Origin: Planctomycetota bacterium | GTDB lineage: Bacteria > Planctomycetota > UBA1135 > GCA-002686595 | Assembly: GCA_029212845.1 (NCBI GenBank) | Contig: JARGPD010000013.1 | Location: 13,802-46,995 of the forward strand | Length of the DNA stretch: 33,194 bases | Direction of reading: 5' to 3' | Shown here: positions 26,562-30,377 of the stretch, one piece after another | How the letters are laid out: the number at the start of each line of letters is the position of its first letter | Position numbering within the stretch: the first letter of the stretch is position 1 | Notes under the pieces: generated by a model | What the model was told of the DNA's origin: nothing | The model's database searches: none | The model's input: only the letters and a program-made list of their open reading frames with translations | Program-made: the position numbers and the translations under genes

Positions 26562-26638
26562 TGGTGGGCGATGAGGGATTCGAACCCCCGGCCTCTTCCG
26601 TGTAAAGGAAGCACTCTGACCAGCTGAGTTAATCGCCC
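26562..26638 (-). tRNA. tRNA-Val, anticodon UAC, CCA encoded
   Basis: Read on the minus strand the 77 nt fold into a full cloverleaf: acceptor GGGCGAT/ATCGCCC, D-stem ACTC/GAGT with AGCTGGTCA loop, anticodon stem CTTCC/GGAAG around TTTACAC (anticodon TAC at + 26602-26604), variable loop AGGCC, T-stem GGGGG/CCCTC (one G-U) with TTCGAAT, discriminator A, and an encoded CCA. It decodes GUA and, with a modified first base, other valine codons. It has U8, the target of the ThiI encoded in this window. It lies between convergent and divergent protein genes, alone. Confidence 0.97.
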
Positions 26639-26753: not shown

Positions 26754-28055
26754 ATGCGAATCGCTGTCGTCGGCACCGGCTATGTTGGCCTCGTCGCCGG
26801 AACCTGCTTTGCGGAGAGCGGCAACACCGTGACCTGCATCGACATCGACGAACGGAAGATCGAGCGCCTCAAGCAGGGCATCCTCCCGATCTATGAACCC
26901 GGTCTCGAAGAGCTCCTCAAGCGCAACGTCCAGGACGGGCGCCTGCACTTCACGACCCAGTACGTGGACTGCATCGGAGACGCCCAGGTCGTCTTCATCG
27001 CCGTCGGCACGCCTCCCGGCGAGGACGGCAGCGCCGACCTGCAGTACGTGATCGCGGCGGCCGAGGAGGTCGCCCGCAACATGAAGGCCTACACGGTCAT
27101 CGTGGACAAGTCGACCGTGCCCGTCGGCACCGCCGACAAGGTCAAGGCTGCGATCGCCGCCAACACCGAGTGCGAGTTCGACGTGGTCTCCAACCCCGAG
27201 TTCCTGAAGGAGGGCGCCGCGATCGACGACTTCCTGAAGCCCGACCGGGTCGTCATCGGCTCCGCCACCGAGCGCGCCGCCGGCATCATGGACGAGCTCT
27301 ACGCTCCGTTCGTGCGCACCGGCAACCCGATCATCCACATGGACGTGCGCTCGGCCGAGCTCACCAAGTACGCCGCCAACGCCATGCTCGCCACGCGCAT
27401 CTCGTTCATGAACGAGATCGCCAACATCTGCATGCGCGTGGGTGCCAACGTCGACCAGGTGCGACGCGGCATCGGCTCGGACGTGCGCATCGGCTCGAAA
27501 TTCCTGTTCGCGGGACTCGGCTACGGTGGCTCCTGCTTTCCGAAGGACGTTCAGGCCGTCGTCAAGACCGCGGAGCAGTACGGCTACCCCTTCCGCATCC
27601 TCAAGGCGGTCGAGGCCGTCAACGAGACGCAGAAGAAGCTCCTGTTCGACATGGTCACCGAGCACTACGGCGACGACCTCGCGGGCAAGCACTTCGCCGT
27701 CTGGGGTCTGTCGTTCAAGCCGAACACCGACGACATGCGCGAGGCGCCGGCCGTCGTCGTGATCGAGCACCTGCTCGCGGCGGGTGCGACGGTCACGGCC
27801 TTCGATCCCGAGGCCGTCGAAGAGTGCAAGGAGTGGCACCTCGGTGACCGCATCCAGTACTCGGAGAATCCGATGGACGCCCTCGACCGCGCGGACGCGA
27901 TGATCCTCATCACCGAGTGGAACGAGTTCCGTCGCCCCGACTTCGACGAGGTCAAGCGCCGCCTCAAGGCGCCCGTCATCTTCGACGGCCGCAACATCTA
28001 CACGCGCAAGACGCTCGAAGCCCTGGGGTTCCAGTACTTCGGCATGGGCACCTGA
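26754..28055 (+). CDS. ugd: UDP-glucose 6-dehydrogenase
   Basis: This NAD-dependent enzyme oxidises UDP-glucose twice to UDP-glucuronate, a precursor for capsule, exopolysaccharide and LPS-type sugars. The 433-residue protein starts MRIAVVGTGYVGLVAGTCFAESG (dinucleotide fold), then VGTPPGEDGSADL, STVPVGT, NPEFLKEGAAIDDFLKPDRVVIG, the AELTKYAANAMLATRISFMNEI helix, the catalytic cysteine in GYGGSCFPKD near residue 261, and WGLSFKPNTDDMREAP. All key residues are present and the length is typical. The start ATG 26754 is preceded by GAACCCCCTCAAGACACC and no Shine-Dalgarno. The leader hairpin at 26681-26701 and the two strong downstream hairpins suggest a single-gene transcript. Its product could feed the glycosyltransferases nearby, but no linkage is shown. 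Confidence 0.97.
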   Translation: MRIAVVGTGYVGLVAGTCFAESGNTVTCIDIDERKIERLKQGILPIYEPGLEELLKRNVQDGRLHFTTQYVDCIGDAQVVFIAVGTPPGEDGSADLQYVIAAAEEVARNMKAYTVIVDKSTVPVGTADKVKAAIAANTECEFDVVSNPEFLKEGAAIDDFLKPDRVVIGSATERAAGIMDELYAPFVRTGNPIIHMDVRSAELTKYAANAMLATRISFMNEIANICMRVGANVDQVRRGIGSDVRIGSKFLFAGLGYGGSCFPKDVQAVVKTAEQYGYPFRILKAVEAVNETQKKLLFDMVTEHYGDDLAGKHFAVWGLSFKPNTDDMREAPAVVVIEHLLAAGATVTAFDPEAVEECKEWHLGDRIQYSENPMDALDRADAMILITEWNEFRRPDFDEVKRRLKAPVIFDGRNIYTRKTLEALGFQYFGMGT

Positions 28056-28098
28056 TCGGCCCGAAAGCGTAGGTTCGAGCCCGAACTCGGACCTCTAC

Positions 28099-28130
28099 GG
28101 GGCGCCCACCTTCAGCGAGGTGGGCGCCCC
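28099..28130 (+). terminator. Strong hairpin after ugd
   Basis: GGGGCGCCCACCT-tcagcg-AGGTGGGCGCCCC is a perfect 13-bp stem with a 6-nt loop, 44 nt past the ugd stop. No T-run follows, so it is either a hairpin-only terminator or a 3'-end stabiliser. Confidence 0.7.
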
Positions 28131-28157
28131 GTCGCATGCCCACTCCGCTGGAATTGA

Positions 28158-28200
28158 AATCCGGGCGAGCCCCTCCACAAGGGAGGTGCCCGCCCGGGTT
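28158..28200. terminator. Second hairpin after ugd, with a short T-run
   Basis: AATCCGGGCGAGCCCCTCC pairs with GGAGGTGCCCGCCCGGGTT around a short loop, a stem of about 19 pairs with two mismatches and one G-T. TTTGATG follows on the plus strand and an A-rich run precedes it, so it could stop transcription from either side. It bounds the gene-free region on its left. Confidence 0.6.
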
Positions 28201-29010
28201 TGATGTCGATCCGTGCTTCACCCGAGGGCTCCCCGCACAAACCATTTGTACGGAAGAAGAGCTGACTCGAGGTCTGCTCCAACAAAAGGCGGCATTTGGA
28301 GCGGCAAGTCAAGCGCACAAAGCATGGAAATCTTCGGCCCTGTTTCGCGCGCGTCGCGGCGGCGCGGCGCGACGTGCGGTGTCGCCACGCACAACGCCGC
28401 GCGCGATGGCTCGCTCCCGTCGCGATCCGGTCGCGTCTTCGGCGGCGAACGGCGCGCCTCTCACGCGTGGGATCGAAGGCTCGCGCGCGCTGCATGCCGA
28501 GGCGCGCAGCGCGTGCGACTCGACGCGCGCGCTCGTGCGGTGCAGCCCTCCGTCACGCGAAGGCGTGCGCACCACAGAGGGAACGCACGCAGGCGAACGC
28601 CGTAGGCTTTCGGCCAAGCCCTAGGAACTCGACATGCTGCTCGGGCACTCCCGCGCATGCGCCTCCTCGTCGCCGCAACGCCGAGCTTGTCCAAGGTCGT
28701 GCAGTGCGGTCGTCCATGGACTTCGCACGGTGCACCAAAGCACTGGACCGCACGCCGATGCAGCGAGCCCAAGCTCCGGACCGAGCCGTGCGAAGTGCGC
28801 GCCGTGTGGGTGCGAGGCGCGCAGCGACATCGGTGGCCGGTGAGTCCGGTCACGGCGAGCTCGGGGGGCGAACGACCTAGGTGGCGAGCAACCGCTGCAC
28901 GAAGGGTGCGAACCCAGGCCGTCGGCCCTGGCTGCGAAGCACGGCCGGCAGCGGGAGGCGCGCGCGTGGCTCGGCAAACCCCAGGTCGTGGCAGCGGTGT
29001 CGCGCACGAC
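28201..29010. other. Gene-free region of about 800 bp rich in inverted repeats
   Basis: ORFs listed here on both strands are Arg/Ala/Cys-rich, overlap one another in several frames, and show no recognisable motif, so I take none as a gene. The base usage differs from the neighbours: runs of alternating CG, few of the CTCGAG/CTCGAC codon pairs typical of coding here, and an AT-richer first 120 bp. Perfect or near-perfect inverted repeats include ACAAA-cca-TTTGT (28237-28249), CTGCTCCAA/TTGGAGCGG (28274-28304), CGCGCTGC/GCAGCGCG (28486-28513), CACGC-gaag-GCGTG (28554-28567), TAGGCTT/AAGCCCTA (28603-28623) and CCAGGCC/GGCCCTGG (near 28914-28930). It could hold one or more structured RNAs, a remnant of a lost gene, or a chromosomal site. 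No tRNA or rRNA match is seen. Confidence 0.6.
28683..28796. ncRNA. Candidate structured RNA with interlocked (pseudoknot-order) helices
   Basis: Three perfect complementary pairs overlap here: GAGCTTG (28683-28689) with CAAGCTC (28770-28776), GTGCGGTC (28704-28711) with GACCGCAC (28746-28753), and ACTTCGCACGG (28720-28730) with CCGTGCGAAGT (28786-28796). The last two are in A-B-A'-B' order, as in an H-type pseudoknot. Complementarity works for either strand, so the direction is unknown. No known RNA family is recognised, and the helices may partly be chance in GC-rich DNA, although an 11-bp perfect pair at this distance is uncommon. Confidence 0.3.
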
Positions 29011-29823
29011 TCAGCGGGTGAAGAGGCGCGCGCCGATCGCCGAGCGCAGCCGCGGTAGGCAGCGCAGGTCCTCGAGGGCCGAGCGCACCCGAGCGCCCCG
29101 GCGGGTCAGCTCCTTCGACGGACTCGCCACGGCCTGTTTGCATGCGGCCAGCCAGCCGCAGGCGCCCTCGAGCTCGCCACGTTCCACCAGGATCAGGATC
29201 AGCTCATCGTGGACGCGTACCAGGGTCAGGGGGTCGGCGACCTCCCCGACCAGGCGGCGCAGGCACAGCTCGGCGCCGTCCCGGTCACCGAGCTCGAGGC
29301 GGGTCTTGGCCGTCCAGAGTCCGGCCAGGTCCCGCCGGTACGCCTCGGCACCCGGGTCGGCCGCCACCGAGGCGTAGGCCTCGAGGGCCTCGGCATGGCG
29401 CCCCTCCCTGCGGTGCACGTGCCCGGCCTCATAGCGGGCCCGGGCCCCGAGGGGCGTCCCGCGCCCCAGGCGTGCGGCCTGCTCGAAGGCCTCCAGGGCC
29501 CCCTCGGCGTCGCCTGCCGCCCGCAGCAGCTCGGCCGCCCGGAAGGCCGCCTCGGCCCCCTCGGGCTCGTCGGGCCAGGCGTGGGCCACCGCGAGGTGCG
29601 CCTCGACCACGGCCCCACGCAGGAGCACCTGCCCCGGCACCTGGTGGGTCCCCCGCCGCAGGCCCCTCGCGGCCGCGAGGGCCACGGCTGCGGGGCTCGC
29701 CGGTGGCGTCGTGGAGTCCTGCCACGTGGTCGCGCCCCGCTCCGGGACGCGCCAGCCGCCCGGCACGGCCGCACGCGCCGCGCAGAACAAGCCGAGGGCC
29801 AGGACCAACGGCAGGGCCCTCAC
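29011..29823 (-). CDS. Secreted TPR-repeat protein coupled to the ECF sigma factor
   Basis: The 270-residue protein starts at GTG 29823, overlapping the sigma-factor stop by 4 nt (GTGA). Its N-terminus VRALPLVLALGLFCAARAAV looks like a signal peptide; the Cys does not sit in a convincing lipobox. Residues from about 60 onward form helical pairs of TPR type: AEAAFRAAELLRAAGDAEGALEAFEQAARLG, ARYEAGHVHRREGRHAEALEAYASVA, and LGDRDGAELCLRRLVGEV. TPR proteins of this type scaffold other envelope proteins. The tight coupling to an ECF sigma gene is where an anti-sigma factor usually lies, but there is no anti-sigma zinc motif or membrane-spanning anti-sigma layout, so its link to the sigma factor is open. 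The track's longer ORF runs into the sigma gene and is not used. Confidence 0.75.
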   Translation of the reverse strand: MRALPLVLALGLFCAARAAVPGGWRVPERGATTWQDSTTPPASPAAVALAAARGLRRGTHQVPGQVLLRGAVVEAHLAVAHAWPDEPEGAEAAFRAAELLRAAGDAEGALEAFEQAARLGRGTPLGARARYEAGHVHRREGRHAEALEAYASVAADPGAEAYRRDLAGLWTAKTRLELGDRDGAELCLRRLVGEVADPLTLVRVHDELILILVERGELEGACGWLAACKQAVASPSKELTRRGARVRSALEDLRCLPRLRSAIGARLFTR

Positions 29824-30377
29824 TGCGCGCTGCCCTCGAGCGAGCGCGTACGCCCCATGCGCAGGGTCACCATGTCCTGCAGCCGCCGGCGCGCGCGGAA
29901 CAGGTGCACCTTGACGAGGTCCGGGCGCATGCCGCAGTCCGAGGCCGTCTCCCGGCAGCTGCCAGCCCCGCCGTAGTAGCTGTCGATCAGCCGGCGATCG
30001 CGCTCGCGCAGGTCCGCGAGGGCATCGGTGAGCACGGCCAGGACCTCCTCCCGCAGCTCGGGCACGCCGCCGACCCGAATCCGGCGCAGGTCCTCCTCGC
30101 CGTGGGGGCAAGGCAGGGTGGGCAGCAGCTCCTCCCCGTCGACGATCGTGTGCAGCCGGCCCTCCCGGCGCACCCGGTCGGTCAGCACGTTGACGCCGAT
30201 GCGGAAGGCCCAGGAGCGCAGCTTGTCGGGGTCGGTCAGGTTCGCGCGGTGTCTGGCCGCGCGGCAGAGGGTCTCCTGGACGACGTCGTCCAGCTCGTTG
30301 TCGTCGCGACAGCGCTCGGCGAGGAAGCGGCGGAGAGAAGGGATGATGTCATCGAGCGAATTCCAGGTCGGTTCCAA
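29820..30377 (-). CDS. ECF-type RNA polymerase sigma factor
   Basis: The 185-residue protein has sigma region 2 (about residues 15-85) with NELDDVVQETLCRAARH and LRSWAFRIGVNVLTDRVRRE, the core-binding and -10 recognition helices, and region 4 (about 120-170) with LADLRERDRRLIDSYYGG, then ETASDCGMRPDLVKVHLFRARRRLQ, a helix-turn-helix for the -35. Regions 1, 3 and a C-terminal SnoaL domain are absent, as in standard ECF factors. The start in the track is TTG at 30377 (LEPTWNSLDDI); no better start exists downstream that keeps region 2 complete. The factor probably directs transcription of itself and the coupled TPR gene. A perfect palindrome, CCCCTAGGGG, lies 57 bp upstream. No anti-sigma gene is seen in the window. 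Confidence 0.88.
   Translation of the reverse strand: MEPTWNSLDDIIPSLRRFLAERCRDDNELDDVVQETLCRAARHRANLTDPDKLRSWAFRIGVNVLTDRVRREGRLHTIVDGEELLPTLPCPHGEEDLRRIRVGGVPELREEVLAVLTDALADLRERDRRLIDSYYGGAGSCRETASDCGMRPDLVKVHLFRARRRLQDMVTLRMGRTRSLEGSAQ

Follow-up and report, generated by a model that had tools for sequence, protein, structure and literature searches.

Among described systems, the bacterial intergenic small RNAs most resemble the putative RNA reported here: they share a length of about 100–150 nt, promoter-like sequence upstream, a stem-loop, a conserved segment adjoining a Rho-independent terminator, and conservation at the level of a family. The present RNA differs from them in matching no Rfam family and in being known from genome sequence alone. 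With 6S RNA (RF00013) it shares a rod-like imperfect hairpin, but it differs by having a terminator hairpin of its own. No match to RF00013 was listed at the locus, and identity with 6S RNA was rejected, a separate 6S-like candidate being present elsewhere in the genome. That candidate, a probable 6S RNA at C90:11062–11220 of the host genome (G000), scores 37.8 bits, below the cut-off of 46.4; similar sub-threshold matches in other family members suggest that the 6S model may cover this family poorly.

The window is the whole stretch of DNA that was analysed, 33,194 nucleotides of contig JARGPD010000013.1 from a Planctomycetota bacterium (assembly GCA_029212845.1). An earlier note on this DNA had drawn attention to about 800 bp without genes, rich in inverted repeats and distinct in composition. 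Here, we describe a comparison of this region with its relatives, which points to one small RNA gene at its left edge.

Results

The gene-free gap extends from 28056 to 29010, between convergent genes for UDP-glucose 6-dehydrogenase and a TPR protein. The dehydrogenase gene on the left flank (26754–28055, plus strand; Pfam PF03721/PF00984/PF03720), which is convergent with the RNA, is followed by a perfect 15-bp hairpin at 28097–28132 (plus strand, folding z −5.1), probably its terminator. A tRNA gene lies upstream of it (26565–26638, minus strand), and many relatives have a tRNA in the equivalent position. The TPR gene on the right flank (29011–29820, minus strand) has a frame that stays open to 30111, and relatives match from about 29011. 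Upstream of it is a gene for an ECF-type sigma factor (29820–30377, minus strand; PF04542 6.5e-12, TIGR02937 above cut-off). The host genome assembly comprises 4.68 Mb in 263 contigs and is 88% complete; its nearest relatives, judged by the dehydrogenase, are uncultured Planctomycetota metagenome assemblies. Dehydrogenase orthologues were found in 56 of 61 genomes, and throughout the family the gene keeps its convergent arrangement with the TPR gene, the two being separated by 32 to about 2000 bp.

The gap reported previously is real, but its true start is at 28056 rather than at 28201, a boundary that cuts through the conserved RNA element. The statement that it holds no plausible reading frame was borne out over 28056–29010. 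GC content by codon position is flat over 28051–28950 (range 0.02–0.11, compared to 0.3–0.6 in the flanking genes), and the reading frames of the gap gave zero matches when tested against Pfam and NCBIfam; a hidden protein was rejected on these grounds.

At the left edge of the gap there is very probably an independent gene for a small non-coding RNA on the minus strand. Its approximate limits, 28279 down to 28156 (~125 nt), are based on a covariance model and on similarity to the closest relative, L135, whose dehydrogenase is 84% identical. This similarity spans 28157–28314 of the window (102 of 162 positions, E 2e-8) and stops at a TTGAC box. Read 5′ to 3′, the predicted RNA consists of a rod-like imperfect hairpin found by folding (ACCTCGAG ... 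CTCGGGT, 28273–28220), with an apical stem-loop CCGTACAAATGGTTTGTGCGG (28253–28233) whose stem covaries; a conserved core, (CCA)CGACATCA at 28208–28201, with the family consensus CCACGACATCA and an invariant GACATC in 14 genomes; and an intrinsic terminator hairpin at 28198–28161, followed in this genome by the short T-tail GATTTC. The terminator, whose stem covaries in 14 genomes and whose strand was taken from G-U counts, may also serve the plus strand. The same arrangement appears in the gaps of many relatives as a GC-rich hairpin adjoining GATGTCG, which on the opposite strand reads as CCACGACATCA followed by an intrinsic terminator. A search of the host genome for the pattern GCCGCC..GATGTCG was uninformative.

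A candidate promoter occupies 28312–28282 on the minus strand, with a −35 box TTGACT (28312–28307) and a weak −10 box near 28289–28282. In many genomes, promoter-like sequences of the form TTGACA/TTCCCA/TTGCAA-N15-19-TANNNT recur at roughly 70–92 nt 5′ of the core. When scored across genomes, the promoters exceed shuffles only modestly (mean z 0.88, versus 0.02 for the antisense strand), and the −10 box is poor here.

The covariance model represents the 3′ part of the RNA only and was built from 14 genomes. It matches its own locus at 28155–28217 (minus strand) with E 3.5e-7. Applied to 61 genomes, the model gave in most family members a best match adjoining the dehydrogenase gene, the TPR gene or both, and genomes outside the training set were matched in the same way (G027, E 3e-9; G002, 8e-8; G003, 3e-7; G004, 1e-6; G021, 2e-6). 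At E ≤ 1e-3, 55 of the 81 family genomes searched contain the element, in most cases as a single copy, and about a third give no match. In four genomes (G007, G023, G033 and G009) a longer or displaced terminator was missed by the model and seen by eye; in G008 the motif lies 166 bp from the TPR gene, and some convergent gaps (32–115 bp) are too short to contain the RNA. In a class-wide sample of 151 genomes, all 45 positives at E ≤ 1e-4 fell within the family.

Weaker second matches at G001 C535:4011 and C305:4086 and at G095 C1:4898391 may represent either paralogues of the RNA or terminators that resemble it. Two contigs of G006 each carry the element close to their start (C54:51–114 and C94:51–114) with identical scores, probably as a result of assembly overlap. 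Above the gathering cut-off, Rfam 15 reported only tRNA in the window and in the loci of 13 relatives, and a lax search gave only sub-threshold matches. No description of such an RNA was found in the literature searched, which is a weak negative.

Among 14 genomes, 11 of the 12 pairs in the terminator stem have undergone double changes, a count equalled in 0 of 500 shuffles; since the covariation shuffles leave relatedness in, such counts are not probabilities. Upstream of the core, the sequence folds into a long imperfect rod in most of the 23 genomes compared. Over an 85-nt window the mean z of these rods was −2.63, with 18 of the 23 below −2, compared to 0.09 for an upstream control; the downstream control averaged −1.28 (median −0.01), and 5 of its 22 stretches contain strong hairpins. 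Taken by itself, the rod of the host genome falls short of significance (z −0.5 to −2.0). Sequence alignment of the rods across many genera gave no usable structure, and they were therefore tested by shuffles, within one genus and by the apical stem. A mixed-genus alignment (A5), in which the pairs only partly follow the single-sequence folds, was left unused. Within one genus, a sequence-based alignment of eight sequences gave a rod (RNAalifold) of 19 pairs, 9 of which carried double changes, a count that 0 of 500 shuffles reached, the structure being derived from the same alignment on which it was tested, which favours it; slid controls dropped to 1–3 pairs. Covariation of the apical stem was seen over a set of ten relatives that includes the host genome. 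The covariation check proposed earlier thus yielded compensatory changes in the terminator and rod stems of the left-edge element. In some relatives, the GACA of the core pairs with the 3′ tail of the terminator.

In the terminator, 19 G-U cells stand against 3 A-C cells, and the folding energy of the rod is lower on the minus strand in 22 of 23 genomes. Because of this G-U excess and the better folding of the rods, the RNA is placed on the minus strand, and a plus-strand reading (hairpin, then GATGTCG) was rejected.

The remaining ~700 bp of the gap (28313–29010) are CpG- and GpC-rich and are probably lineage-specific, unconserved filler. They show no similarity to L135, no match in the host genome, plasmids or phages, and no codon periodicity. 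The claim of a distinct composition held up in a dinucleotide scan of the gap (CpG 1.31, GpC 1.28, CC 0.68; other long gaps are mostly near 1): among gaps of at least 500 bp in the 656 kb of the host genome used for comparing composition and gap length, this one ranks first for both CpG and GpC and last for CC. It is also the longest gene-free stretch in these 656 kb, with the exception of one in L217 that contains atypical low-GC ORFs. Elsewhere in the host genome, a gene-free contig end of ~800 bp (C53:18737–19537, L246 8737–9537) has a probable terminator followed by degenerate repeats resembling GCTCTGCTGCCGCTAGGCAAG.

The strong hairpins that had been noticed on the left are present at 28097–28132 and 28161–28198. 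The earlier count of at least six good inverted repeats is weakly supported: there are seven with 8-bp arms, compared to about 2.3–2.5 in dinucleotide shuffles (P about 0.01–0.02). This mild enrichment is confined to arms of 8–9 bp and is not seen for arms of 6, 7 or 10 bp, and folding of the interior is ordinary, with z about 0 in shuffle comparisons over 230–300 bp. The single exception, at 28461–28580 (z −3.3), is similar in size to a value reached inside a neighbouring gene.

Discussion

A single large RNA or a cluster of small RNAs filling all 800 bp would account for the seven 8-bp-arm repeats in excess of shuffles, but the interior z-scores near 0, the lack of similarity even in the closest relative and the lack of any Rfam match make this very improbable. 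What survives of the proposed cluster is one small RNA at the left edge (28279–28156, minus strand). An outlying composition might also mark a dispersed chromosomal repeat or the remnant of a mobile element. Apart from the locus itself, however, nothing in the host genome scored above 39 bits against the gap (at 88% completeness, the missing part could hold a second copy), and no homologous copies were found in 60 relatives or in plasmids or phages; those short matches in relatives that were inspected seem to fall within coding sequence and were taken as compositional. We therefore abandoned the repeat, which we consider the least probable of all the readings, and rejected a plasmid or phage origin of the gap.

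Two further alternatives concern the left edge itself. The conserved element could be only a terminator, possibly bidirectional, that has a motif beside it and is used by both convergent genes, without an RNA gene. The 3′ part is indeed the best conserved, T-runs flank the hairpin on both sides in several relatives, and the promoter evidence is modest. Against this, 23 genomes have structure reaching some 85 nt beyond the core on its 5′ side, and within one genus that structure covaries; the similarity to L135 continues to the TTGAC box, and the dehydrogenase gene has a separate hairpin of its own at 28097–28132. The flanking genes also vary. The gene 5′ of the RNA, which encodes the TPR protein here, reads as glutamate dehydrogenase in L135, and in G036 a glutaredoxin gene lies about 1.1 kb from the RNA, both names coming from reading of the sequence rather than from a database match. 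In G030, G027 and G004 the RNA adjoins the TPR gene while the dehydrogenase is on another contig, although contig breaks limit the firmness of this observation. Since its neighbours vary in this way, the RNA is not simply the 3′ UTR of one gene. Alternatively, the mRNA of the sigma/TPR operon could end in a structured 3′ untranslated region that comprises the element and may be processed into an RNA: in most genomes examined the element follows the TPR gene on the same strand. In L135 and G036, however, it follows the dehydrogenase without an adjoining TPR gene, and here it lies about 700 bp away from the TPR stop codon. We regard both the terminator and the untranslated region as unlikely, to a similar degree.

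The reading that we prefer is an independent small RNA gene. Comparison between genomes shows a conserved element, its strand, covariation of its stems, its mostly single copy and its restriction to one family; beyond this, we infer its transcription, promoter use, exact ends and function. RNA polymerase would start at the sigma-70-like candidate promoter at about 28312–28282, and the resulting RNA of roughly 125 nt would fold into a long imperfect rod-like hairpin, leaving the conserved CCACGACATCA-type segment largely unpaired, before transcription stopped at the GC-rich intrinsic terminator (28198–28161).

As to function, we lean slightly towards a trans-acting regulatory RNA, or a protein-binding RNA, that would act through the conserved core. 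Families that lack the RNA contain perfect 11-base complements of the core about as often, and mRNA targets perfectly complementary to it are not commoner in genomes that have the RNA. Such complements are therefore no mark of RNA-bearing genomes, and base-pairing targets are unsupported by them.

The odds appear about even that this is a new regulatory RNA spread throughout an uncultured Planctomycetota family, in which a variable rod is joined to a fixed CCACGACATCA segment and whose dedicated task would be regulation, exerted by base-pairing or by means of a bound protein. The locus shows how the impression of a gene-free, structured region can conceal a small conserved RNA beside unconserved filler. 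For this family, it would provide a family-wide, mostly single-copy RNA with comparative support, at a concrete locus and strand, with a candidate promoter, a terminator and a usable covariance model.
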